Positions 28,417 through 56,865 of a stretch of 64,000 bases of DNA are shown one piece after another. The DNA comes from Rhizobium sp. CC-YZS058 (lineage in GTDB: Bacteria > Pseudomonadota > Alphaproteobacteria > Rhizobiales > Rhizobiaceae). The stretch is from contig NZ_JAYESJ010000001.1 of the NCBI RefSeq assembly GCF_034720595.1, positions 2,878,001-2,942,000 of the forward strand, given 5' to 3'. Numbering within the stretch: the stretch's first letter is position 1; the number at the start of each line of letters is the position of its first letter. The notes beneath the pieces were generated by a model. The model saw only the letters and a program-made list of their open reading frames with translations. It searched no databases and had not been told where the DNA came from. Position numbers and translations under genes: made by a program.

Positions 28417-28490
28417 TGGGGAATAGGTTAACGGTAGACCCACGGACTCTGACTCCGTTAGTCCTGGTTCGAATCCAGGTTCCCCAGCCA
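28417..28490 (+). tRNA. tRNA-Gln (anticodon CTG)
   Basis: A full cloverleaf can be drawn: acceptor TGGGGAA/TTCCCCA, D arm GGTT/GACC, anticodon stem ACGGA/TCCGT with loop CTCTGAC (anticodon CTG, reading CAG), and T arm CCTGG/CCAGG with TTCGAAT. Discriminator G and an encoded CCA follow. Its 3' end is the probable integration site of the island that starts here. Confidence 0.95.
28471..28490 (+). repeat. Candidate attL within the tRNA-Gln 3' end
   Basis: GAATCCAGGTTCCCCAGCCA, the last 20 bp of the tRNA gene, recurs with 18/20 identity at 58612-58631. The first 12 bases are identical. This is the standard footprint of tyrosine-recombinase insertion into a tRNA gene. Confidence 0.7.
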
Positions 28491-42131: not shown

Positions 42132-44807
42132 ATGATGAACCCCACCGAAATTGCCGATGCCCTTGATGCCATTGCCAAGACGAAGTTTGATCCCACCGAG
42201 TGCGGCTATGCCTTTGCGCAGGCGACAGACAATGCGCAGGCAACTATTGCCAAGCTGAGGGTGGGCAGCACCAACAAGTCGGATATTGCGGGCGGCGTTC
42301 TGCTGAACGGCAAGTTCCATTATGCACCTGCCTTGCAAGGCAGGGCGGCTGACATGCTTGATGCGCTTCGTGCCTCCAAGCGCACGGCAAAAGCGAAGCC
42401 CGCAATCCTGATTGCCACGGATGGCGAGATGATTGCCGCCGAGCACCCGAAGTCCGGGGAAACGCTGCACTGCCCCTTTGCCGAGCTTGGCACGCATTTT
42501 TCCTTCTTCCTGCCTGCTGCTGGCAAGGAGCGGTATCGGGCGGCAGAGGAAAACCCGGTCGATATCAAGGCCACCGGCAAGCTGGCGAAACTTTACGATG
42601 CGCTTTTGAAGGCAAACCCGGATTGGGCCGTGCCGGAGCGCCGCCATGCCATGAACCTGTTCATGACGCGGCTGATTTTCTGCCTGTTTTCTGAGGATGT
42701 CGGTGTCTTCAAGGAAGATCAGTTCTCCTTCGCCGTCTTCTCCTATGGCGGCAATAAGGGTGAACATGCGCGCCATGTGCTGGTTCAGGCGTTCACCGCC
42801 ATGAACCTGCCCAAAGGCCAGCGGGAGGGACTGCCTGCCTGGACGGACACGTTCGAATACGTCAATGGCGGGCTGTTTGCTGATGCCATCGAAGCCCCGG
42901 AATTCGACCCCATCTCCTTCCGCTATCTGCGCGATGCCGCAGAGCTGGACTGGAAGCTGATCAACCCGGATATTTTCGGCTCGATGATCCAGTCGATTGC
43001 CGATCCCAAGGCGCGCGCCGAACTGGGCATGCATTATACCTCGGTGCCGAATATCATGAAGGTGCTGGGGCCGCTGTTTCTGGACGATCTGGATGAGGCA
43101 TTGGACAAGGCCTGGGACAAGCCAGCGGCGCTGAAGGTCCAGCTTCACCGCCTGTCAAAAATCCGCGTCTTCGATCCCGCCTGCGGCTCCGGCAACTTTC
43201 TGGTCGTCGCCTATCGGCAGATGCGGGAGCGCGAAATTCGCATTCTGAAACGGTTGGGAGAGCTGGAGTATAATCCGCAGAACGTCATGTTCTCCTCCGT
43301 CAGCCTCAACCAGTTCTACGGCATCGAGTTGACGGACTTTGCGGCGGAAACGGCTAAGCTGGCGCTGTTCATTGCCGAATATCAGGCCAATGCCCGCTTT
43401 GCCGATGTGTTCGGGCGCATGCCTCCGCTGCTGCCGCTGCGGGATGGTGGACAGATCAGGTGCGACAATGCTCTGCGGGTAAATTGGGATGAGGTTTGTC
43501 CGCCACCCGTTGGGGAGGACGAGGTTTACATTGCGGGAAACCCGCCGTTTTTGGGAAAAGCAAAGCAAGAAGCGACACATAAAGCAGATATGGATTATGT
43601 TTTCTCGGGTGAAATTAGAAATTATCGGGCCTATGATTTAGTTGCTGCTTGGTATTTCAAAGCCGCCAAATATATAGTTGGCCGGGTGGCTAAGGCAGCA
43701 TTGGTTGCCACAAACTCAATTTGTCAGGGAGCGTCAGCGTCAAGCCTGTGGCCTGAGATACTAAGAAACGGTGTTGAAATTGGTTTTGCTTATCGCTCAT
43801 TTAAGTGGAGAAACAACGCAGCCGCAAATGCTACCGTCACTTGTGTAATCGTTGGAATCAGAAATCAATCAGATAGTAACCGCTATCTGATTGATTCCGA
43901 TGTCAAGACCATTGCAACAAAAATAAACTCCTATCTAATTGACGAATCTGAAATATTCGTTCGCCCTACATCGTTACCTTCAAACGGTCTCCCAGTTATG
44001 AACTTCGGCTGCATGCCCTATGATGCCGGTAATCTTAGATTGTCGGCTTCAGAGCGAGATGAGCTAATTGAGATAGCGCCCGCAGCAGATCGTTTCATAA
44101 GAAAATTTGTTGGATCTGATGAGGTCATCCATGGAATATCGCGTTACTGTATTTGGATTCATGATCAAGAATTAGAAATAGCTAAACTTTGCAAGCCTAT
44201 ATGGGATCGCGTAGAGAAAAATAGAATTGCTCGTCTCAAAATGAAAGATGTAGCTGGAAAGGCACTAGCAGAGCGCCCTCACCAGTTTAGAGAGTACATC
44301 AATGCAGACGATCATGCTATATTAATCCCAAGTATATCTTCGGAAAATAGGCCTTATCTACCTGTTGATTGGGTGAACTCAAAAACTGTTTCATCGAATA
44401 AAAACTTTGTTATATATGATGGTCCCGAATGGTGTATCGCGCTCATAGCGTCTAGGCTTCATTTAATTTGGATCGGAACCGTTTGCGGTCGACTCGAATC
44501 GAGATTTCAGTATTCCAACACGCTGGGCTGGAACACCTTTCCGGTGCCGAAATTCACCGCTGATCAATTGGATCAGCTTTCAGCCTCCGCACGTCGCATT
44601 CTGAAAACGCGCTATCAGCATTACCCGAAAACCATTGCCGATCTCTACGACCCGGACAAGATGCCGGATGATCTGCGGGCCGTGCACCGGGAAAATGATG
44701 AGCTTCTGGAGAGCATGTATATTGGCCGCCCCTTCCGCAATGACACGGAGCGGCTGGAAAAGCTGTTCAAGCTTTACGCGGCGCGGGTGAAGCAGGGGGC
44801 GAAGTAA
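42132..44807 (+). CDS. Large class I DNA (adenine) methyltransferase
   Basis: This 891-residue protein has SAM motif I in FDPACGSGNFLVVAY (about 346-360), the catalytic NPPF in AGNPPFLGKA (about 469-475) and a helical N-terminal region (LFSEDVGVFKEDQF) typical of type IIG/IIL and BREX-like methyltransferases. The target-recognition part, about residues 473-795, is encoded by conspicuously AT-rich DNA (43,550-44,515), while both flanks are GC-rich. The stop touches the helicase start. It should modify host DNA so that the coupled nucleases attack only unmodified DNA. Confidence 0.9.
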   Translation: MMNPTEIADALDAIAKTKFDPTECGYAFAQATDNAQATIAKLRVGSTNKSDIAGGVLLNGKFHYAPALQGRAADMLDALRASKRTAKAKPAILIATDGEMIAAEHPKSGETLHCPFAELGTHFSFFLPAAGKERYRAAEENPVDIKATGKLAKLYDALLKANPDWAVPERRHAMNLFMTRLIFCLFSEDVGVFKEDQFSFAVFSYGGNKGEHARHVLVQAFTAMNLPKGQREGLPAWTDTFEYVNGGLFADAIEAPEFDPISFRYLRDAAELDWKLINPDIFGSMIQSIADPKARAELGMHYTSVPNIMKVLGPLFLDDLDEALDKAWDKPAALKVQLHRLSKIRVFDPACGSGNFLVVAYRQMREREIRILKRLGELEYNPQNVMFSSVSLNQFYGIELTDFAAETAKLALFIAEYQANARFADVFGRMPPLLPLRDGGQIRCDNALRVNWDEVCPPPVGEDEVYIAGNPPFLGKAKQEATHKADMDYVFSGEIRNYRAYDLVAAWYFKAAKYIVGRVAKAALVATNSICQGASASSLWPEILRNGVEIGFAYRSFKWRNNAAANATVTCVIVGIRNQSDSNRYLIDSDVKTIATKINSYLIDESEIFVRPTSLPSNGLPVMNFGCMPYDAGNLRLSASERDELIEIAPAADRFIRKFVGSDEVIHGISRYCIWIHDQELEIAKLCKPIWDRVEKNRIARLKMKDVAGKALAERPHQFREYINADDHAILIPSISSENRPYLPVDWVNSKTVSSNKNFVIYDGPEWCIALIASRLHLIWIGTVCGRLESRFQYSNTLGWNTFPVPKFTADQLDQLSASARRILKTRYQHYPKTIADLYDPDKMPDDLRAVHRENDELLESMYIGRPFRNDTERLEKLFKLYAARVKQGAK

Positions 44808-46934
44808 ATGGTTGAGATGGTCAATGTGCGCTACAACGGCACCGGGCAATCCAAGGCCACCAATGCGCTGGGCCAGCGGCCCATGCAGGCCCGCGCCTAT
44901 GCCGCCCGCAGCGCGCAGTTCATTCTGTTGAAAGCCCCGCCTGCGGCGGGCAAGAGCCGGGCGCTGATGTTCGTGGCGCTGGACAAGCTGAACCATCAGG
45001 GGCTGGCGAAAACCATTGTCTGCGTGCCGGAAACCTCGATTGGCGGCTCCTTCCGCTCAACCGATCTGAAAAGCTACGGCTTCGATGCTGACTGGCAGGT
45101 GGAGGACCGCTGGAACCTCTGCCTTTCCGGCACCGAAGATGGCTCGACCGCGCAGAAGGTGAAGGCGTTTTCAGACTTCATGCAATCCGACGCCCGCGTT
45201 CTGGTCTGTACCCATGCCACCTTCCGCTTCGGCTTTGAGGCGGTGGAGCGGCTGCATGGCATTGAGGCCTTCGACACTGTGTTCCTCGCCATCGATGAGT
45301 TTCACCATGTCTCGGCAGCCGATAACAACCGTCTCGGCGAAATTCTGCGGCAGATCATTGCGCGCGGCCAGTGCCATGTGATGGCCATGACCGGCTCCTA
45401 CTTCCGGGGCGATGCCGTGCCGGTGCTGCGGCCGGAAGACGAGGCGCGCTTCAAGACGATCACCTATTCCTATTACGAGCAGCTTGAAGGCTATGAGTAT
45501 CTGAAGGCGCTCGGCGTCAACTACAGCTTCTATCGCGGCCAATACATCAACGGCCTGCCGGATGTGCTGGACACAACGCTGAAGACCATCATCCACATTC
45601 CCCATCGCGGTTCGGCGGAAGCCTTTGGCGAGAAGAACGATGAGGTGGGCCGCATTCTCGATCTGATCGGCGAGCATATCGGCGTGGAGGACGGCACCGG
45701 CTTCGATCTGATTCGCACGGCAGATGGCCGGGTGCTGAAGGTGGCCGATCTCGTCAACGATGGCCCGGATCGCGAGGGAGTAAAGGCGGCACTTTCCCGC
45801 GAGATCAAAGGTCCAAATGGCAAGCGCGACGATGAGGCGGACCGCGCCAAGGTGGACATCATCATTGCGCTCGGCATGGCCAAGGAGGGGTTTGACTGGG
45901 TGTGGTGCGAACACGCGCTGACCATCGGCTATCGGGCATCACTGACCGAAATCGTCCAGATCATTGGCCGCGCCACGCGCGATGCGCCGGGCAAGCCGAA
46001 AGCCATCTTCACCAATCTAGTCGCGGAACCCGGCGTGGAAACGGCGGCTGTGAAGGATGCCGTTAACGACATGCTGAAGGCCATTTCCGGCTCCTTGTTG
46101 ATGGAACAGGTGCTGGCGCCCAATTTCAAATTCTGTCGCCGCGAAGATGGCGACATTCGCGAACCAATCACCGATGACGGACAGGGCACGATCACCATCG
46201 GCATCAAGGGCCTGATGGATCCGCCGACCGACCGGGCGCGAGACATTTGCGAAAACGATATGGCCGATCTGATGGCAACCGCCTGTCAGGCCGTCGATGC
46301 CCGCATCGTTTCGCCAGACACGGCACCGGAAGTGGCAACCCAGATGCTGCTGACGGACATTATCGAGCATCGCTATGTGAACCTCAACGATGACGAAACC
46401 GAAGCCATTCGCCAGAACCTCGCCGCACGCATGAACCTGCTGACGCTGGCACGCCAGGAAGCCGAACGTGGTTTTCAGGAAGCGGGCGCGCCGTTCGTCG
46501 GTGCCGATCAGGAAGGCGGGGAAGCGCCCCGAATGGGCGGCGACGCCGGACAGGCGGATAGCGAAAACGCAGACGACGATATAAGGGTGGCACCCAACAC
46601 GCTGCTGGCCATGGTGCGCCGCTTCATCAATGTTCGTGAACTCGACATTGATCTCATCGACAGCGTCAACGCCTTTCAGGAATGCTTCGAGGTGGCCTCG
46701 CGCAGCTTCGATGCCCTGCTTCTGTCTCAGGTACAGTCGGCCATGGTGGCCATGCGTGTGCAGATGACGGAAGAGGAAGCACGGACGCTGTGGCCCCGGA
46801 TCAAGCGGTTCCGGGCGCAGGAGGGGCGCGAGCCGAATGTCCATGCCGAAGATGCGCTGGAAAAGCGCATGGGAGAAGCGCTGGCCTGGCTCAAGAACCG
46901 CAAGACCCAGATGATGCGGGAGACGGCAAGCTGA
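44808..46934 (+). CDS. SF2 (DEAD/DEAH-type) helicase of the restriction-like operon
   Basis: This 708-residue protein has Walker A LKAPPAAGKSRAL (about 41-52), motif II AIDEFHH (about 161-167), motif III MTGSYFRGD and motif VI EIVQIIGRATRDAPG (about 381-395). It starts directly after the methyltransferase stop and shares one base (TGATG) with the next gene. It lacks an obvious nuclease domain. In such operons the helicase/translocase moves on DNA and couples recognition to cleavage. The unstructured acidic stretch near residue 575 (GGDAGQADSENADDD) separates the helicase from a helical C-terminus. Confidence 0.88.
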   Translation: MVEMVNVRYNGTGQSKATNALGQRPMQARAYAARSAQFILLKAPPAAGKSRALMFVALDKLNHQGLAKTIVCVPETSIGGSFRSTDLKSYGFDADWQVEDRWNLCLSGTEDGSTAQKVKAFSDFMQSDARVLVCTHATFRFGFEAVERLHGIEAFDTVFLAIDEFHHVSAADNNRLGEILRQIIARGQCHVMAMTGSYFRGDAVPVLRPEDEARFKTITYSYYEQLEGYEYLKALGVNYSFYRGQYINGLPDVLDTTLKTIIHIPHRGSAEAFGEKNDEVGRILDLIGEHIGVEDGTGFDLIRTADGRVLKVADLVNDGPDREGVKAALSREIKGPNGKRDDEADRAKVDIIIALGMAKEGFDWVWCEHALTIGYRASLTEIVQIIGRATRDAPGKPKAIFTNLVAEPGVETAAVKDAVNDMLKAISGSLLMEQVLAPNFKFCRREDGDIREPITDDGQGTITIGIKGLMDPPTDRARDICENDMADLMATACQAVDARIVSPDTAPEVATQMLLTDIIEHRYVNLNDDETEAIRQNLAARMNLLTLARQEAERGFQEAGAPFVGADQEGGEAPRMGGDAGQADSENADDDIRVAPNTLLAMVRRFINVRELDIDLIDSVNAFQECFEVASRSFDALLLSQVQSAMVAMRVQMTEEEARTLWPRIKRFRAQEGREPNVHAEDALEKRMGEALAWLKNRKTQMMRETAS

Positions 46935-48139
46935 TGACCCGCCCCACGCTGGAAGAGATCTTTGCAGAGCCAGACGAATTTGGTCTTCTTGCTGTGAAGC
47001 TGAAACCAAGGGCCTCATCTTCAGGCAACAATGGCCTATCAATTCTGTATGATGTGACGCGCTTTTTCGAGCACCACGGACGTTTGCCCGATGCCAACGC
47101 ATCCAACCACGAAGAGATGCGGCTTGGCACGATCTGGGAAAACCTTGCCAAGTATCCGAGTGAGGAGCTTCGGCAAGCGGACAGGCTTAGACTTCTGGCA
47201 CGGAAAGAGGACGTCGCTAAGGTTTCCTGGCGCGATGAGGTTGAAGACGACAACATTCCCAACTCGCTTGATGACATCTTCGCCGATGACGGCCTGGATG
47301 TTCAGCCTGAGCTTGTTCAGCTCAAACACGTCACGCCAGCGGCAGAACGCCTACTGCCTGACCATCGGGCGGATTTCATACCTTGCAAGGATTTCGATCA
47401 GTTCGCCGGTCTGTTCGAGACCATGGAACAGGCCCTCGATAGCGGTGCACGTGAAGCCACGCTCATTGAAAAATGGGCCGTTATCGAGCCACTGGAAGGC
47501 GACTTTTTCATTCGCAACGGCCTTCTGGCCTTTATCGCGGAAAAGAGCGAAAGCACGCAGCGCGGCGGCGCGCGCGACCATCGCCTGCGGGTGATTTTCT
47601 CGAACGGCACTGAAAGCGACCCGCTGATGTCGTCGTTCCGCAAATCCCTCAATGACGACAAAACGGCTCGCATCATTCAGCGCCTGGGCCTCGGTCCGCT
47701 CGATCCCGACTGGGAGACCGACAAGGTTTCGCTTTCCGGCACAATCTATGTGGCGCGCAGCCTTTCTGAAGATCCGGCGATCAAACCGCAGCGCGACATC
47801 CTCTACAAGATCGGTGTCACCTCACAAGACGTCCGGCGTCGCGTAGCTGACGCCCGAAACGACCCGACCTTCCTTCTTGCGCCAGTCGAGATTGTCGCGA
47901 CTTACGAGCTGCAGAACCTGTCGCGTTCCAAAGTCGAGAATCTGCTCCATCGGTTCTTTGACGCCGCAAGGCCCGGAGAGCTGTTCATTATTGACCGCTT
48001 CGGCAAAAGAATTCGACCGCGAGAATGGTTCTATGTGCTGCCGGAGCACGTCGCTCACGCAGCTCAGCTCATCAAGGACGGACAGCTACATCTGTACCGA
48101 TACGACCGCGAGACGCAGAAGATTGTCAGGAGATCGTAG
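46934..48139 (+). CDS. GIY-YIG (T5orf172/MUG113-type) nuclease of the restriction-like operon
   Basis: This 401-residue protein starts at MTRPTLEEIFAEPDEFGLLA, with its ATG overlapping the helicase stop. A helical N-terminal region (about 1-260) precedes the T5orf172 domain: GTIYVARS, YKIGVTSQDVRRRVADARND, SKVENLLHRFFDAARPGELF and REWFYV. This is a divergent GIY-YIG fold with Tyr, Arg and Glu positions kept. It is probably the DNA-cutting subunit together with Mrr. It is the last gene of the module, 10 bp before a palindrome copy. Confidence 0.85.
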   Translation: MTRPTLEEIFAEPDEFGLLAVKLKPRASSSGNNGLSILYDVTRFFEHHGRLPDANASNHEEMRLGTIWENLAKYPSEELRQADRLRLLARKEDVAKVSWRDEVEDDNIPNSLDDIFADDGLDVQPELVQLKHVTPAAERLLPDHRADFIPCKDFDQFAGLFETMEQALDSGAREATLIEKWAVIEPLEGDFFIRNGLLAFIAEKSESTQRGGARDHRLRVIFSNGTESDPLMSSFRKSLNDDKTARIIQRLGLGPLDPDWETDKVSLSGTIYVARSLSEDPAIKPQRDILYKIGVTSQDVRRRVADARNDPTFLLAPVEIVATYELQNLSRSKVENLLHRFFDAARPGELFIIDRFGKRIRPREWFYVLPEHVAHAAQLIKDGQLHLYRYDRETQKIVRRS

Positions 48140-48165: not shown

Positions 48166-48369
48166 TGCCAGGATAGCGCCGCCATGCCTTCTGTTCAATT
48201 TCAAATCGGCTTGTGCTTCGCGCTTTCGTTGTCCAACCGAGTCCGGTCACGAGAGTTTCGAAACGGCAATGCTTCGGTGCAGTTTACCACTAGTTGAATT
48301 TGTCGTTAATTATAACAGAACTTGATGAGCCTAGATTTCTAAAACCTTGCGTAGAAATAGGAGGGGTTG

Positions 48370-51300
48370 TTGGCGTTAAAATCGAGGGGAAACGTTGACC
48401 TTAAGGGAATAATTGAGCAATGCGACATCGTGGCGGTCGCAACTGCCCTCGGTCTTCAGGTCGACCGAACTAAATCTCGGCCTCATAAGGCGCTTTGCCC
48501 CTTTCATGACGACCATAGTCCATCTCTGAATCTCTATCAGCGGGCGGGAAAACGTGACAATTTCCATTGCTTCGCATGTGGCGCCCATGGCGATGTTCTG
48601 TCGCTTGTGCAGCGGCGGAATAATCTCAACTTCTGGGATGCGGTTCAATGGCTCGCCCCACACGCGGGCGTTTCGCTTGCCGAAAACATCCGAAGGCCGA
48701 GCATTGATCGGCGCAGCGGGGCAAAACAATTTGTCGAATGGTTGCGCGGAGGATCTGACGAACAGGAGCTTGAGCGCATCGCGGCACATCGCGGGTTCGA
48801 GCCCGATATGCTTAGGAGGATCGGCGCTAGCGTCTATGATCTCACCAGGCTCCGTCGCGAAGCCTCGACGGATCGTGCACTTGAAGAAGCGCTGTGCAAA
48901 GCCGGCATCTTGCGTGCCGAGGCAGCGGCGCTTCCAGACAGTGAAACGCGAAATTGGCTACGCGGCTTCTACTCGGGCAAGCGGATCGTATTTCCTTTGG
49001 GCAGTCGAGGCGGCGCACCCGTAGGGTTTGCCGCTCGGGCTTTAGGGAATGAAGATCCCCGATACTTATATTCCTTCGACTTCCCGCGCCGCGACACGCT
49101 GTACGGGGCCGAGCGTGTCGAAGCAATGCTCAGCCGGCGCGAGTTACGCGGGAACATGGCATATATCTATGTGGTCGAAGGAATTTTCGATCAGTTGCGT
49201 CTGGAGTCCCTTAATTTCACCGCGGTTGCCTTGCTCGGCTCACGTGCTGCACCGGGCCAAGTCGCTGCGCTCGCGCATATCGTAGACATCGCCAGCCAGG
49301 CCGATCGGCCTCTCAATTTTCGCCTTTTTCTCGACCCCGACACTGCAGGGCGAGACGGCACTTACGACTTGATTTTAGCGCTGTTGCGCCTGCTGGATGG
49401 TGGTAGCGCTTTCGGGATTGAGGTAGTGGTGCCGCCTCCAAATGCCGAGAAAGCTGATCCCGACAGCTATTTACGTGGCCGAAATCACGAGGACGCAGAT
49501 TCGCTGCTCGACCGTAACGCCTATCCAGCACTCGAATTCATGCTCTGGATGCGGACCGGACAGGGCGAACTTCCTATCAATATCGAGGGGCTGTCCCCCG
49601 TCCAACTGGCAAGCAGCGCGCGTCGCATTGCCCACGCCCTTCCTGATGTAAACTGGGACAGAGTTTTGGCGCCACTGGATGTAGCGGAAACCTTAGGCGG
49701 ATTCGCTGCGATGATCCGGACCTATAGCGACGGTGTACCGCGTGGGGCGCTTAAACCTGTCGACCGGCGCGAAACAACGGGCGATCCGCGAGCAGACTTG
49801 ATCACTGCTCTGAGTCTCGGGCGATCTTCTACAAAACGCCGTGAATATCCTCTCGATGACGACGCATGGGAGCGGTTAGCGGTCGCCGCCTCGCCGCTGT
49901 TCCATCTCCATCGTGAACGCCTAAAAATCGGTGATGGCCCGATGGCACCGCTCCTGGCGCGCCATCTCCCCAAGGGTGGTGGGCGATACCGCCTCAAAGC
50001 TGGGCCAGTCGCGGCTGACGCGCTGCTTCAACAATATGCACTTGTTGAGTTGCTGCGTGATCGTTCTGGCGCTCCCGGTTTCTCCGATCGGATCCCCGCC
50101 GTCCGCTTCGATCGCCGAACGGGTGGCAGAGGGATTTACCGGACAGGTGTCGAGGGAGAAACCGAGGCCTTGAGCTTTGCCTATCAGGTCGATATGGCGA
50201 TTGTTAACGGCGAAGCGCCACCGATGCGTGAAGGTATTTTTCGACCCTACTTCGAATGCTGGCGTGCCTTTATTGATCATTTGGATAACAAGATCCGGCA
50301 CTATCGGCATGAAGATCTACAGATCCTGCGGCTCGATATTACAGGATTCTATGAGTTCGTGCGTCCTGAAGTGGTCGGTGATGCTCTGCAAGGGCCGCTA
50401 GAACGTGCTCTTGGCCATTTTGCGCAAGCCGACGGCGGACCTATGGGGTTCGCCCCGCTGCTCCTTCCCGATTCCGGTGCAGATGCGCCTCTTCGTGCAA
50501 ACGTCTTTACCGACTTCCTGCTCCGTCATGCCTTCCACAATGAGCATGCAGATCCCAAATCAGGCCAATCTGCGCGTCTTAGGGGCCTTCCGCAAGGTCC
50601 TGACCTATCAGCTTATCTTGCAAACATTTCGCTTTTCGAGCTTGATGACATGATGCGGGCCGAGGTGAAGCGTATCGACGCCGCTTACATAGATAAAGAA
50701 CTTGAGAGCGAACGAAAGCGGGGCACGCCAAACCCCCACGAATCACAGGAGACTCACGGCGACGTCAAACAAGAGCAGCGCCGAAATCAATGTAGTGCAG
50801 CCTATGCGCGTTATGTGGATGATATAATCCTTATATGCCCGAACGCCGACGTTGCCGGGCTACTGCGACGAAAGATCGAAACTCACCTTCAACTGAGGGG
50901 GCTTTCGCTGAATCGAAAGAACGCGACCCCACCCTTGATGACCCGCCAAGAAGCGCGCGAGTGGCTCACAGATAGCCGCATGGGCTTCGGCTTCTCTGGT
51001 CCTCTGGCAGACATGCCAGTGACAGATACGATGGATCCGCTGGCCGATGCCGGCGACATTGATCGCCGAACTGCGCTTGGTTTACTTTTCGACCCCGAAC
51101 TCGACGACTTGCGGCGCCCAGAGCGCATACAGGAACGGTTAGAACGGGCATTTCGTGCCGACGAGGTGCGATTTAGCGACCGCGCTAACGCCTATCGGCG
51201 TCTTTGGCTGATCGCGGCGGGCGAAAATCACTTGGGGCCCACCGAGATCGCACGCTCATTTCGGACCGAAGCCCTTCGCGTGGACGTGGGCGCGCGGATG

Positions 51301-54300
51301 GCTGACGCTCCGTTCGATATCACGGTTACGGCCCTAGAAGCGATCGAGCGCGCGTTACGCGCCCATATTCCAGAAGCATTGGAGGAAGACGCGCGCGACT
51401 ACTGGTCAGAGCGCCGACGCTGGTTAGCGGAGGCGGTTCTAGCCGACATTTTTGCCCCCCTTGCCAGCGCCTTTATGGGCACAGATGCAGAGTCATTCCT
51501 TCGGCGCCATGATGTTCGCTGCCATGTTGCCATCATCGCCTGTTTGGCGCTCTCAGTTCTAAAAGATGCGAAGGTCGCCAATGGCGAGCACCCGTTTGCC
51601 TCGCTCATGCCATATCTCTCTCCAGCAGAAGGCGTCGAACTTATGTACGACGGCTTGCGACTGTCGCTGTACCGTCACGATGGGGACCTTGAGCCCCGTC
51701 TTCCTGGACTAACTGTCCCATCCGAGCAGCAGACCCGCAACGCCTTTCATCGTCTCGAGACCGCACTGGTGAAACTGCAAAGGCTCGACGACGGGGCGCC
51801 CGACTTATCCCCGACTCCAATTGCTGATACCTTTGCGACGGAAATTGAACAGGTGGTCGAGAATATCTTAAAGATCTGGACACCTGGCGCAGATGACGAC
51901 GCAAAGATCGACCCGGTGGAAGTCGATGCCGCGGCTACGCTCGTCAACGTCACCCACCGACACTTCGCCAATATCGCTCCTGCAAGGCCGCGGTTGATAC
52001 GGATGATCTCGAACAGAAGCGACGCGACAGCGCTTCCGTCACCGCCAGGTCTTGAAGCCTCGGGTTTGATGTTATGGTGCGCTAATGGTCATCTGCTTTT
52101 TGCAGCGCCGCTGAGCGATGCGCCGCGTCCAGTGGGTGCTCAGTGGCGCGAAGAGAACTCCAATGGGCAGGGTTTCCTTCATTTATGGAAGGCCGACCTG
52201 GCTGCCGATATCAGGCCGATGTTCGCGGTTGAAAGGGATTGGGATGCGCAAGATATCGCCGCGCTATACGAAGCAGGGTATGGATCATATCGCGGCCTGC
52301 TCGCCGCCGCGACGACAGAGCATGTACCAGTTCCAACGGTCTTTTCGTTCTTTGCTCCTGTCGATGCGAACGAGATGCCCGACATCCACCGTACAACCCT
52401 TATCTGCTGGACCGCCCCCCGTCCGGCAGTCGATGGTCACGCTTTCGTGCGGAACGGAAGCGCTCTTGAAGCGCGGCCGGTCCATCTCCTTGACGCCGAC
52501 CATTGGCGTTACGGCTGGGCGGTACGTGATCTCTGTCGCCGACCAGAAGGTCCCGCGGAAGATATTACGGCCTTGGAAGGTCATAGCGACACTAAGCTTG
52601 ACCGTTTAAGTCACCGCCGCGAGGCGATTTTAGCGCGTGTGCTGCCCCGGCTCTCCGGAGCCGATCGATGGGGTGCCGGACTACAATCCGATGACGGTGC
52701 TATTCCCACACGTATTGCTCGAGCGCTTCGACTGCTGACCGCATTCGGTACGACCGTACTCCCCGACCAACATGCAAGTTATCTTGTCGCGGCAACGGCC
52801 GAAGGCGTATTTATGAGCGAACGGCTGGGTACGGTCGGAGATGCGAGCCATAGCGGTCGGCCGGCTGCGATAGCGGCTCGGGCCGCGCGGCGTGTGAGCC
52901 GGGCCCTTCCGGCCGCCGGCCGATTGTGGCCTGTCAGGCAGTCTTTCACCAGCGCTGAGCGAAGAAGCGCGGCTGCATGGTTCGCCGCTGCACATCGCGT
53001 TGAAACGCAGGTCGGCGAACTTGGCGAGGCAGCCGCGATTCCGCTAGCAACACTCGGTATAGGACTTACCCTTCTGGGAACTATGGCCGAATTACGCGCT
53101 CTAGCTTTCGAGATGGCTGCCGCCTTGCCCTCGGGGAGTCTCGAGCGCCTGCAAAATCTTCCGATCGATCTGTCCTTCGCTGCCCAACACCTGGGCGGCG
53201 AGATCGCATTGATCGACGATGCGGAGAGCCATCTTGACGGCGATCCGAACGTGCAGACAAGGCGCATGTTGCTAGTCTTCAGGCAGATCGTCGAGGGACG
53301 CCGCACCGCAGCGGCGGCGGCGCGCGATGCGATAACGCCGCTCGGATGGCTGATTCTTGTGTCGACGCTGTTGCAACTTACACCACCAGTAACCACAGAG
53401 TTTGGGGAAGTTCGACCAGCCCTATGGCGTATGACATCAGACGGTTTCGAACGCGCGGCAACGGCAATTTCCGGTCTGCTGCCGTTCCTTGCGGCTGCGG
53501 CGCCTGATGTTGCAGAAGACGGCGATTGGCCTTGGAACACCTTTGAGCCGCTTCGCACTGCGATGCCTGGGGGCCTCAAAGACTACTTGACAGAATTGTC
53601 CGTAGCGGCAGCGATCCGCATCGATGTTTTGCGCTCAACTATCAATCCGCGAACGGGTGAAGTCGTCGACGGACGGCCAGTGCTGCGGCTCGCGGACGGC
53701 AGTTCACATCGGTTGTCCGAATGGCAGATCGATGTAGCATATGTGGCAGGCGAGCGCCGTCTATCTACCGAGTGCGAGGAGCATGAAAGCCGCATTCACT
53801 ATCGCTATTCAGTAGCCTGGAACAATGACCGGGTCGTTGGTCTCCACCTCGTGTCTCAAAGCCTGGCCGAAGTGGCGTTTTGCGCCGCGTCAGATGGGAC
53901 CGCTGGGAGCGCAGAAACCAATAGCGACGAACTGGTAGCACATAGAACTGCCGGGCAAACTGAAACTTCAGTAGTGACACAAATCACTGGAGATGTGCAG
54001 GAAGGGCCGATAGAAGGCCCGAACTCTCAAGAAGAGCATCTAGCAGTCAACAATGGTTCACGTCTCGGCCAAGTTACTACCGAGGATCCTCCAGCAACGC
54101 TGCCACAAAGCACCAAGGGTGGGGTACCCAGCACATTGGCGCCCGTCGACGCGATGGCCCGTATCATTCAGTGGCAAGATCGGCTTTGGGGCGATCGAGC
54201 CAAACGTGGCCACGGCCACCAACGGCTCGCCATAGTGCAATGGGATGTTGTCGACACATATTACGCGCCTGGCACCGGAGGTGGAAAGCACGAGGGTTTG

Positions 54301-55887
54301 CGCGATCTCAACGGTGGCAAGGTCACCGCAGCGACAGTAAGCAAAGGAGGAGAATTCCAATCGATCGCCGAAGGCCGGCGACGAGCTATTTTGCTCGAAG
54401 TGCTTCGCGCCTGCGCCCGCTTCAAAGTCGATGGTCTTGTGCTGCCAGAATACAGCCTGCGACCCGAGACCGTGAATTGGCTTACACGCCAGCTCTCCGC
54501 CAAAAATTTATCGCTGACCGTCTGGTGCGGAACGTTCCGCGTTCCTGACGGCTCGTCAATCTCGACAGAAATCCCGTCCAACGGACCTTCGCCTTTCCTT
54601 CGGCCAACGCCCATGGGGCGTGCTGGAGCGATTGAGTGGGACATGCATTCCGCTTTGCTAACCTGTGTAGACTCACAGGCTTCGGAAGATAGGATTCAAA
54701 TTCGGTGCGCTGTACGACGCAAGCGGTACCCTTCGTCAGCCGCTGGCGAATTGATTAGGCCCTCTGCAAACGAGCCTTGGCAGCCTTTGCTTTCTCACGT
54801 GAAAGATCCGTTCCGCCTCGGAAACTATACGGTTGAACTCGTATGCTCGGAAATGTTTCTCCACGCAAGCGCTTCCAATTACATAGGCATTCTCGAAGAA
54901 AACCGGAGCCTCGCTCAACGCTACGCAATCCCATGGCCAACATCCGATGCCGTCCAAACGCTCAATGCCGACGTGCACGAGTTCGCGCGTTGGACGTCCT
55001 ATCGTAGTGTCGAAGAGCCGCCAGAGCTCTCTCGCGGCGAAGCAATGCAGCGAACCTTGATCATTCTCCCGGCCATGACGTCACGGTCTGCCGACTATCA
55101 CATTTTCGGCCAGAACCAGTATCTTGCAGCGGGGCTCGTGACTGCTTTCTGCAATGCAGTGGAACCAACGGCGGGGGTCGGGGGATCTGCTTTCATTGGA
55201 CTTGATGGCTGGAAATCCGGAATTGAGACGGCGACGCCTTACGGCTCCTTAGCGCCGGGGATCTTCCAACTCGGTAGTAAGCATAGCGATGCACTTGGCA
55301 AGCATGAGGCCGCGATGGTGATTGCGGACATCGATCCGATCCGTACCACTGACCTGAAGCCGCGTCCGCACCATCAAGGTCGGTCGTTACAGCTTGTCGC
55401 GCATCTTCCGCTCATTTTTGCCACTGAATCCAATCCATCGCCTGAAGCTCGCGGAACTCGCGAACGGATGCAGCGAACTCGCCACGTCGGCGATGCGCAA
55501 AAGACCTTTCTTGAGGCTGCCATAGCTGTGCAAGAAGTCTTGGATACACCTGATCCGAACTGGCGTCATGAGCGTGCTGCGCCCGACCCGGATCCTTTGA
55601 TAGAGCGACGACAGACAGCGATCGTTCAGAAGACTGTCGCAGCGTTGGAGATGCTCGTTTGCTTTGCCGACGACCCTGAATGGTTGCGGCGCCGCTCTGC
55701 TGCATTTTGTGAAAAAAGGTGGCATTATCCACCGCCGTCGAATCTTCCGGCTCTGATCGACTGGCTATATGTTGACGACAGTTGGCGCGAGACCAAGGTA
55801 GACTTGGGGGACCGCCATCCATACGAGGTCGACGAGAGTGTGCTCCATGTACCGCGTGATGGTGGTACAACAGAATTTAAGGCCTAA
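48370..55887 (+). CDS. Giant primase-like / reverse transcriptase / nitrilase fusion protein
   Basis: This 2,505-residue protein is read from TTG 48370, five bases after AGGAGG (TTG 48367 is an alternative). Domains in order: a DnaG-type CHC2 zinc finger (C43, H46, C67, C70), a DnaG-type TOPRIM (E270, D322, D324; then KADPDSYL), and a reverse transcriptase with palm Asp656 (RLDITGFYEF), GLPQGP at 739-744 and YVDD at 815-818. About 950 residues of unrecognised, mainly helical sequence follow. The C-terminus is nitrilase-like with E2027 (VLPEYS), K2118 and C2159 (VELVCSEMF). RT-nitrilase fusions are known in the defence-associated UG/DRT group (DRT1/UG1). The N-terminal primase module and size set this one apart. 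Role in anti-phage defence is inferred. Confidence 0.88.
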   Translation: MALKSRGNVDLKGIIEQCDIVAVATALGLQVDRTKSRPHKALCPFHDDHSPSLNLYQRAGKRDNFHCFACGAHGDVLSLVQRRNNLNFWDAVQWLAPHAGVSLAENIRRPSIDRRSGAKQFVEWLRGGSDEQELERIAAHRGFEPDMLRRIGASVYDLTRLRREASTDRALEEALCKAGILRAEAAALPDSETRNWLRGFYSGKRIVFPLGSRGGAPVGFAARALGNEDPRYLYSFDFPRRDTLYGAERVEAMLSRRELRGNMAYIYVVEGIFDQLRLESLNFTAVALLGSRAAPGQVAALAHIVDIASQADRPLNFRLFLDPDTAGRDGTYDLILALLRLLDGGSAFGIEVVVPPPNAEKADPDSYLRGRNHEDADSLLDRNAYPALEFMLWMRTGQGELPINIEGLSPVQLASSARRIAHALPDVNWDRVLAPLDVAETLGGFAAMIRTYSDGVPRGALKPVDRRETTGDPRADLITALSLGRSSTKRREYPLDDDAWERLAVAASPLFHLHRERLKIGDGPMAPLLARHLPKGGGRYRLKAGPVAADALLQQYALVELLRDRSGAPGFSDRIPAVRFDRRTGGRGIYRTGVEGETEALSFAYQVDMAIVNGEAPPMREGIFRPYFECWRAFIDHLDNKIRHYRHEDLQILRLDITGFYEFVRPEVVGDALQGPLERALGHFAQADGGPMGFAPLLLPDSGADAPLRANVFTDFLLRHAFHNEHADPKSGQSARLRGLPQGPDLSAYLANISLFELDDMMRAEVKRIDAAYIDKELESERKRGTPNPHESQETHGDVKQEQRRNQCSAAYARYVDDIILICPNADVAGLLRRKIETHLQLRGLSLNRKNATPPLMTRQEAREWLTDSRMGFGFSGPLADMPVTDTMDPLADAGDIDRRTALGLLFDPELDDLRRPERIQERLERAFRADEVRFSDRANAYRRLWLIAAGENHLGPTEIARSFRTEALRVDVGARMADAPFDITVTALEAIERALRAHIPEALEEDARDYWSERRRWLAEAVLADIFAPLASAFMGTDAESFLRRHDVRCHVAIIACLALSVLKDAKVANGEHPFASLMPYLSPAEGVELMYDGLRLSLYRHDGDLEPRLPGLTVPSEQQTRNAFHRLETALVKLQRLDDGAPDLSPTPIADTFATEIEQVVENILKIWTPGADDDAKIDPVEVDAAATLVNVTHRHFANIAPARPRLIRMISNRSDATALPSPPGLEASGLMLWCANGHLLFAAPLSDAPRPVGAQWREENSNGQGFLHLWKADLAADIRPMFAVERDWDAQDIAALYEAGYGSYRGLLAAATTEHVPVPTVFSFFAPVDANEMPDIHRTTLICWTAPRPAVDGHAFVRNGSALEARPVHLLDADHWRYGWAVRDLCRRPEGPAEDITALEGHSDTKLDRLSHRREAILARVLPRLSGADRWGAGLQSDDGAIPTRIARALRLLTAFGTTVLPDQHASYLVAATAEGVFMSERLGTVGDASHSGRPAAIAARAARRVSRALPAAGRLWPVRQSFTSAERRSAAAWFAAAHRVETQVGELGEAAAIPLATLGIGLTLLGTMAELRALAFEMAAALPSGSLERLQNLPIDLSFAAQHLGGEIALIDDAESHLDGDPNVQTRRMLLVFRQIVEGRRTAAAAARDAITPLGWLILVSTLLQLTPPVTTEFGEVRPALWRMTSDGFERAATAISGLLPFLAAAAPDVAEDGDWPWNTFEPLRTAMPGGLKDYLTELSVAAAIRIDVLRSTINPRTGEVVDGRPVLRLADGSSHRLSEWQIDVAYVAGERRLSTECEEHESRIHYRYSVAWNNDRVVGLHLVSQSLAEVAFCAASDGTAGSAETNSDELVAHRTAGQTETSVVTQITGDVQEGPIEGPNSQEEHLAVNNGSRLGQVTTEDPPATLPQSTKGGVPSTLAPVDAMARIIQWQDRLWGDRAKRGHGHQRLAIVQWDVVDTYYAPGTGGGKHEGLRDLNGGKVTAATVSKGGEFQSIAEGRRRAILLEVLRACARFKVDGLVLPEYSLRPETVNWLTRQLSAKNLSLTVWCGTFRVPDGSSISTEIPSNGPSPFLRPTPMGRAGAIEWDMHSALLTCVDSQASEDRIQIRCAVRRKRYPSSAAGELIRPSANEPWQPLLSHVKDPFRLGNYTVELVCSEMFLHASASNYIGILEENRSLAQRYAIPWPTSDAVQTLNADVHEFARWTSYRSVEEPPELSRGEAMQRTLIILPAMTSRSADYHIFGQNQYLAAGLVTAFCNAVEPTAGVGGSAFIGLDGWKSGIETATPYGSLAPGIFQLGSKHSDALGKHEAAMVIADIDPIRTTDLKPRPHHQGRSLQLVAHLPLIFATESNPSPEARGTRERMQRTRHVGDAQKTFLEAAIAVQEVLDTPDPNWRHERAAPDPDPLIERRQTAIVQKTVAALEMLVCFADDPEWLRRRSAAFCEKRWHYPPPSNLPALIDWLYVDDSWRETKVDLGDRHPYEVDESVLHVPRDGGTTEFKA

Positions 55888-55890
55888 GTT

Positions 55891-56865
55891 GTGAGCAGTG
55901 TAATTGGAGATACTGCCTCCGAGGAGCTACTGGAGGCGGCCGCTCGCCAGCTCGAAGCATCCGGACGGTACCGGGTGCTCCGCCGGCTGGATCTCGCTGC
56001 ATGCTTGGCTGACCGTGACAGCAGTCCGACGCGGCTCGGCATGTTTCTCGACATCGAATGCACCGGTCTCGATCCTTTGACATGCGAGCCGATTGAATTG
56101 GCGATCTTACCCTTCGAGTATCGTCTCGATGGAGCAATCGTGGCCATTCACCCTCCTTTTCAGCAAGTCAATCAGCCGTCGGCTCCCATCCCTCCCAACA
56201 TTACGAAGATCACTGGCATCAACGATGAAATGGTCTCTGGACATCACATCGATCCCGCCACCGTTGCGAATTTTGTCGAAGATGCCGCTATCATCATCGC
56301 ACACAACGCTGCGTTCGACCGTCCAATCGCCGAGCGAATTTCGCCCGCGTTCATTGCCAAACCTTGGGCATGCACTATGTCGGATGTCGATTGGAAAAGC
56401 GAGGGATTCGAAGGCCGACGCCTGGGCGAATTGTTGGCAGCGTTTGGGGTATTTTTCGATGCTCACCGCGCCTTGGATGACTGTGAGGCTGGCGTAGGTC
56501 TCTTGGCCCAGAAGGTTCCATGTTCGGGTCGCCGCGTACTCGAGATGCTTTTGGAGACAGCCCGAAAGCCATGTTGGAGGATCTTCGCAATAGATGCGCC
56601 TTACGACGCTCGTGAATTACTGCGGCAACGCGGATACCGCTGGAATGCTTCCCCAGAATTCGGACCCAAATCGTGGTGGATCGATCTGGGAATGAAGGAA
56701 GTCGAGCCTGAACTTCAATTCCTTGAGAATGAGATTTTTCACCGTCCTATAAGCTTACCAATGGAGGAAATGACGGCATACGATCGCTACTCAATCCCGA
56801 TGACCAGACGCGCGCTTCGGCAGGCGGATTCGCGAGAACATCTGGCGTCCTCCGTTCGCCCTTGA
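55891..56865 (+). CDS. DEDDh 3'-5' exonuclease, partner of the RT fusion
   Basis: This 324-residue protein is read from GTG 55891, three bases after the RT stop, without a strong ribosome site; translational coupling is likely. All five DEDDh residues are visible: D54 and E56 (FLDIECTGLD), D143 (HNAAFDRP), H192 and D197 (AHRALDDCEA). The family covers DnaQ/epsilon and RNase T-type exonucleases. The last 110 residues (RIFAIDAPYDARELLRQRGY) add an unrecognised C-terminal domain. Its place suggests that it trims or degrades the product or target of the primase/RT protein. Confidence 0.87.
   Translation: MSSVIGDTASEELLEAAARQLEASGRYRVLRRLDLAACLADRDSSPTRLGMFLDIECTGLDPLTCEPIELAILPFEYRLDGAIVAIHPPFQQVNQPSAPIPPNITKITGINDEMVSGHHIDPATVANFVEDAAIIIAHNAAFDRPIAERISPAFIAKPWACTMSDVDWKSEGFEGRRLGELLAAFGVFFDAHRALDDCEAGVGLLAQKVPCSGRRVLEMLLETARKPCWRIFAIDAPYDARELLRQRGYRWNASPEFGPKSWWIDLGMKEVEPELQFLENEIFHRPISLPMEEMTAYDRYSIPMTRRALRQADSREHLASSVRP

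Follow-up and report, generated by a model that had tools for sequence, protein, structure and literature searches.

A UG29 reverse transcriptase fusion with a DnaG-type primase, a predicted nitrilase and an adjoining DEDDh exonuclease gene in Rhizobium sp. CC-YZS058

The locus and its two genes

We analyzed a 64,000-nt stretch of the Rhizobium sp. CC-YZS058 genome (NZ_JAYESJ010000001.1, positions 2,878,001-2,942,000, forward strand), here called the window, with a focus on two adjoining genes on its forward strand. The first, at 48370-55887 (+), is a reverse transcriptase (RT) fusion gene with a TTG start and a product of 2,505 residues that by its profile match belongs to UG29, a little-studied group thought to act against viruses. 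The second, at 55891-56865 (+), has a GTG start and codes for a 324-aa DEDDh 3'-5' exonuclease of the PRK09182 family; it begins 3 bp after the fusion gene ends. The list of open reading frames (ORFs) shows no stop within 48367-55887, and the uninterrupted 2,505-residue frame described in an earlier note on this DNA, which was made from the letters alone, is indeed there at 48370-55887. Residue numbers below count from 48367, the start of the listed protein P0001, and are one higher than those of that note. The best start is the TTG at 48370, because a Shine-Dalgarno sequence, AGGAGG, lies at 48359-48364 (+), where similarity to the relative L003 (Altericroceibacterium) also begins, and because L003 reads CTG TTG at this site with the second TTG alone common to both.

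All domains of the fusion are read from the forward strand. They are a DnaG-type CHC2 zinc-binding domain (48388-48681, residues 8-105), a DnaG RNA-polymerase/TOPRIM core (48691-49740, about residues 109-458), an RT domain (49780-51006, about residues 472-880, with YVDD at 816-819), a middle region (51217-54156, residues 951-1930) that is partly modelled as mainly helical with some strands and then a low-confidence linker, and a nitrilase-fold domain (54172-55380, about residues 1936-2338). Pfam recognizes CHC2 (3e-17) in the fusion protein and, all below the Pfam cut-off, DNAG_N (4e-4), Toprim_4 (0.012) and RVT_1 (7e-5); it calls no nitrilase there, which is why the nitrilase assignment rests on predicted structure. 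Two structure models, with residues 961-1319 falling outside both, predict DnaG/TOPRIM primase, RT and nitrilase folds within the one frame, so that the structure prediction proposed in the earlier note recovers all three. Searching PDB sequences with profiles of the nitrilase and of the middle region brought up no credible match. Profile and predicted fold together indicate a primase of the DnaG type, with a CHC2 zinc finger and a TOPRIM core carrying metal-binding acidic residues, and the nitrilase part combines the predicted fold with the Glu-Lys-(Glu)-Cys active site of the nitrilase superfamily. With the exonuclease described below, profiles and predicted folds support all four enzyme assignments of the earlier note.

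The PADLOC model RT_UG29 (PDLC03767) matches residues 9-2477 of the fusion to positions 3-2269 of its 2280 with a score of 1,846 bits. The next-best PADLOC models are an RT-associated DnaG-like model (142 bits) and UG10_large (52.7 bits), and the next RT models all score below 60. Since primase, RT and nitrilase all fall within the UG29 model, the fused architecture is already catalogued, as the earlier note had suspected it might be, and the profile evidence makes the fusion a member of the catalogued UG29 group of UG/Abi reverse transcriptases. That note had filed the protein with UG1/DRT1 instead, a placement that we reject on profile coverage: Drt1a reaches 25.6 bits, and its best and only stretch is residues 624-770, within the RT. 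The UG5-nitrilase model scores 27.2 bits with its best stretch also in the RT, and the profile scores therefore do not put the fusion RT with UG1 or UG5. Membership in DRT7/UG10 was set aside as well, the best UG10_large stretch lying inside the RT and the primase being of the DnaG/TOPRIM kind. A search of the available literature for UG29 as an RT found no published description. The RT_UG29 model does not include an exonuclease gene, whereas the locus in the window has one adjoining.

Conserved active sites and the exonuclease partner

Homologues of the fusion protein numbered 79 among 7,991 scored candidates, and 48 of these were aligned with the query to give 49 rows, the other 31 being left out. 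The zinc ligands C44, H47, C68 and C71, the TOPRIM residues E271, D275, D323, D325 and D364, the RT residues D657 and Y816-V-D818-D819, and the nitrilase residues E2028, K2119, E2128 and C2160 are invariant in 49 of 49 rows; the column of D366 has Asp in 47 and Asn in two. The catalytic residues that the earlier note had called intact are thus not only present in the window but invariant among its aligned relatives. Every genome-locus piece that spans the region likewise has these residues unchanged (36 or 37 rows with the query counted); L010 and the L031 second ORF, which have stray letters outside the region that they cover, did not enter this recount. Ratios of nonsynonymous to synonymous substitution rates (dN/dS) between the window and L003 run from 0.05 to 0.18 over seven parts of the gene, at dS above 1. 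The less saturated pair L004/L005 gives 0.05 for the zinc domain, 0.16 for the TOPRIM core, 0.08 for the RT, 0.15 for the nitrilase and 0.44 for the short C-terminal part, and the pair of the window and L001 gives 0.40 in the middle region. Selection on the fusion gene looks purifying by these estimates, which makes a relic primase unlikely.

The adjoining gene matches NF006615 (PRK09182) with 354 bits against a cut-off of 207, and PF00929 at 1.4e-16. All 14 aligned exonuclease rows share its residues D54, E56, D143, H192 and D197, which marks the product, by sequence, as a complete DEDDh exonuclease of the RNase_T family, as had been noted earlier. This exonuclease, the only member of its family in the window's genome, adjoins UG29 on the same strand in nine loci, namely the window and L001-L008. 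It lies downstream in eight of them, with a start between -49 and +44 bp from the UG29 end (nominal ORF ends); in L008 it is upstream, 86 bp away. In one genome, that of L059/L075, an exonuclease stands beside the last part of a UG29 gene, which is all that is left of it, and on a Sphingomonas plasmid the pair spans the record start. In a quick tree of 35 rows, which omits L005 as nearly identical to L004, the exonuclease-linked UG29 sequences form one clade with an SH-aLRT support of 100. In the exonuclease tree the downstream copies group with the L059 copy in a single clade, supported at 96/97 when all rows are used and at 100/99 once six long rows are dropped, and the L008 copy sits apart. 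Two independent gains of the exonuclease were considered and not adopted: one clade is not rejected by the approximately unbiased (AU) test, with p values of 0.31 and, in the second tree without the six long rows, 0.38. Thus, of the pairing for which the earlier note had proposed a neighborhood search, the lasting association stands in nine loci, and its reach is a single clade; on sequence evidence the partnership is real, and we found no description of this exonuclease-partnered variant.

Distribution and surroundings of the cassette

The genome scan gave 41 UG29 loci, spread over Pseudomonadota, Bacillota, Planctomycetota, Verrucomicrobiota and Myxococcota. Two plasmids carry members of the group as well. 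Among 385 genomes of the window's class, with at most four candidates scored per genome, the RT was matched in the window's own genome alone, and the distribution is sporadic. DNA similarity between the window and L003 covers 48359-53884 and 54134-56809; these stretches lie within the two genes and take in nothing outside them except the ribosome-binding site. L004 and L005, 97% alike over the cassette, differ outside it except for a single stretch of 58 bp; the likeness of L002 and L007 continues past the cassette, and this pair is uninformative on its borders. Where alignments A6 and A7 run beyond the cassette, they were not counted toward conservation. A tblastn search of viral contigs gave no relative among 25 pattern matches, and none of 99 matches in phage records covers 80% of the query, the ten listed rows matching the primase region only. 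The sole Rfam match over the window is a tRNA at 28417, with no Rfam match to a noncoding RNA beside the RT gene such as class 2 defence-associated reverse transcriptases (DRTs) have. Comparing the window with L001 and L003 showed no conserved flanking RNA, which leaves room for an RNA inside the frames.

This distribution bears on whether UG29 might serve a mobile element in replication or repair and not be a defence system. Its presence on two plasmids and the likeness of primase, polymerase and exonuclease to a small replication kit speak for such a role, and we know of no defence assay for UG29, which we count on the same side. We nevertheless regard this explanation as quite improbable, given that the nitrilase active site, invariant in the 49 rows, has no known role in replication, that the window's genome has a separate DnaG-like frame of 705 aa elsewhere, and that UG29 is so sporadic in the class.

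Several surrounding genes and variant loci were also recorded. Upstream of the fusion and on the same strand, 42132-48139 of the window holds genes for an MmeI-type IIG restriction-methylase and a DEAD-box helicase and a T5orf172/MUG113 gene, and L001 carries the same three at 81-96% identity. At L031:9944-17343 (Pseudoalteromonas) the fusion is divided over two ORFs, one for primase-RT and one for the nitrilase, which lie in different frames and overlap by 4 bp at nominal starts; the division likely marks a natural module border. At L013:813-8549 (Aureimonas) two in-frame stops break the gene into three pieces. A gene without a Pfam match, common to L031:17330-18247 and L037:17673-18572, overlaps the end of these gammaproteobacterial UG29 genes and may be another partner. 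At L018:14930-16399 (Lachnospiraceae) a Schlafen AlbA_2/RecG-C-terminal-like gene follows and overlaps UG29, and a related ORF of 83 aa occurs in L021 near the end of the contig. On the Polaromonas plasmid pPNAP05 (L080) the annotation of UG29 goes no further than CHC2 zinc finger protein; a NACHT protein, an integrase and a PIN/VapB pair are encoded nearby.

Proposed mechanism and comparison with known systems

Recent work describes defence RTs as writing odd DNA and nucleases as deciding whether that DNA turns toxic. DRT1 DNA, made template-free and protein-primed, assembles and silences the DRT1 nitrilase, and protection needs both active sites, that of the RT and that of the nitrilase (PMC13275509). 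DRT9 could not be taken up by a strain without ExoI (PMC12483538), nor DRT3 by strains without RecBCD parts (PMC13174585). For UG29, the analysis above shows the anatomy, the predicted folds of the modelled parts, the invariant catalytic residues, the exonuclease linkage and the cassette borders. From the systems just named we infer the following order of events for a two-gene UG29 cassette, at a probability of roughly 0.42. The RT protein would make DNA that controls the nitrilase, and the exonuclease would remove this DNA in uninfected cells. Specifically, the DnaG core would lay short RNA on single-stranded DNA, either phage DNA or a strand that the RT itself had made, and the RT would extend that RNA. 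The DNA product, by analogy with DRT1, would govern nitrilase assembly and activity, and the nitrilase would deplete or poison an essential metabolite so that the infected cell stops. In this clade the DEDDh exonuclease would keep product levels down until the enzyme is blocked, or the DNA end shielded, by a phage protein. The earlier note had already suggested that the primase may make the RT primer, which is possible and the simplest role for the DnaG core; the exonuclease, which it had proposed as a processor of primer or cDNA, seems better understood as restraining the DNA that the RT makes, in view of the ExoI/DRT9 and RecBCD/DRT3 cases. We think it unlikely that the cassette goes as far as a DNA-based toxin-antitoxin pair, which would be the first defence RT started on its own DnaG RNA, with a same-chain nitrilase as executioner and the exonuclease as an antitoxin that erases the DNA until phage disables it.

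A number of observations weigh against the proposed order of events. The Foldseek E-value of the nitrilase is middling (1.5e-3). The commonest PADLOC model near UG29 at E 1e-20, mad3, has five members among the families listed, with no control set for comparison; the scan covered 110 neighbor genes of 180-1,000 aa, the top entries of a list of 184 that lie within 4.5 kb, and the families listed were the first 25 of 66 for PADLOC and 25 of 90 for Pfam, the latter showing no common family (at most three members among those listed). The context is therefore no more than suggestive of a defence island. The nine linked loci amount to about six distinct lineages, the near copies being the window/L001, L002/L007 and L004/L005, and 33 UG29 loci (20 with at least 1 kb on both sides, the remainder cut) have no exonuclease, which is not essential to the group. 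Most members of the NF006615/PRK09182 family in our genome searches do not lie beside UG29: of the 60 relatives whose genomes were searched in addition to the window's own, 13 have one without UG29 in the 0.75-1.5 kb flank, among them all six genomes searched of the window's genus (G001-G006), whose unlinked copy is 42-43% identical. Such common unlinked relatives, together with the 33 loci without the gene and a UG29 tree on which one gain suffices, would fit a repair or proofreading gene that hitch-hikes from one ancient insertion beside a UG29 that works alone. We consider this improbable, since the link holds while UG29 protein identity drops to 35% and the flanks change, the spacing stays close in the eight downstream loci, and the exonuclease is under purifying selection (dN/dS 0.10). 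Host ExoI is absent in nine of nine exonuclease-linked genomes and in 21 of 31 others (Fisher p 0.08, uncorrected for kinship, and some of the 40 genomes may be incomplete; L030 and L038 were left out as second contigs of genomes counted via L024 and L022). The counts lean in the direction of an exonuclease that stands in for a missing host ExoI, but they are confounded by kinship and the support is weak.

The remaining weight against RNA priming comes from protein priming, which is reported for DRT1 and DRT5 (PMC13275509), DRT9 (PMC12483538) and DRT4 (PMC13314766) and, on preprint evidence, for DRT7 (PMC13213688), and for which Ser877 (codon 50995-50997, +) offers a candidate site, so that RNA priming may be wrong. 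The RT would then start DNA on its own side chain, likeliest Ser877 in the loop that follows the RT palm, without a template, and the DnaG core would act on the resulting strand as a sensor or second-strand primer. Column 877 has Ser in 45, Tyr in three and Glu in one of the 49 rows, and Ser in 29 and Tyr in six of 35 genome rows; among 2,237 scored columns it alone contains Ser as well as Tyr at a joint share of 90% or more. The residue borders a segment (879-895) with a predicted local distance difference test (pLDDT) score below 50, and DRT1 and DRT5 make DNA template-free, with the DRT1 priming residue Ser402 in an unresolved stretch (PMC13275509). In view of this column make-up and the adjoining low-confidence loop, we take protein priming followed by a later role for the primase seriously as a rival, though we hold it to be less likely than not. 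The alignment around 877 is loose and the loops differ, the equivalence of Ser877 and Ser402 is putative, other class 3 DRTs do not conserve Ser402 (PMC13275509), and the intact DnaG catalytic residues of the aligned homologues would need another reason.

With writer, effector and a likely eraser encoded together, the cassette would allow the idea of nuclease control to be tested directly in two genes. It would also reveal whether defence RT synthesis can be initiated by a bacterial primase of the replicative type, given that the DRTs in the accounts consulted generally prime on protein.

Among known systems, class 3 DRTs are defined by an RT with a nitrilase or phosphohydrolase in a multidomain protein (PMC13275509), a combination that the predicted folds of the fusion also have. 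Like UG29, DRT1/UG1 is a single chain with an RT, a helical region and a nitrilase with a catalytic cysteine (PMC13275509). Its PDB chain has 1,229 residues, however, the best matched stretch is the RT motif part, and neither a primase nor a partner exonuclease is described for it in the portion of the account at hand (PMC13275509). DRT7/UG10 shares a primase domain fused to the RT (PMC8934634, PMC13213688), but that primase is of the AE_Prim_S/PrimPol type, whereas UG29 has DnaG with TOPRIM, and the excerpted accounts of DRT7 include no nitrilase. Closest to the role proposed for the exonuclease are DRT9 with ExoI and DRT3 with RecBCD, in which an exonuclease restrains the DNA of a defence RT (PMC12483538, PMC13174585); there the nuclease is a host gene, whereas in the UG29 clade it is encoded beside the RT, where it would play the same part.
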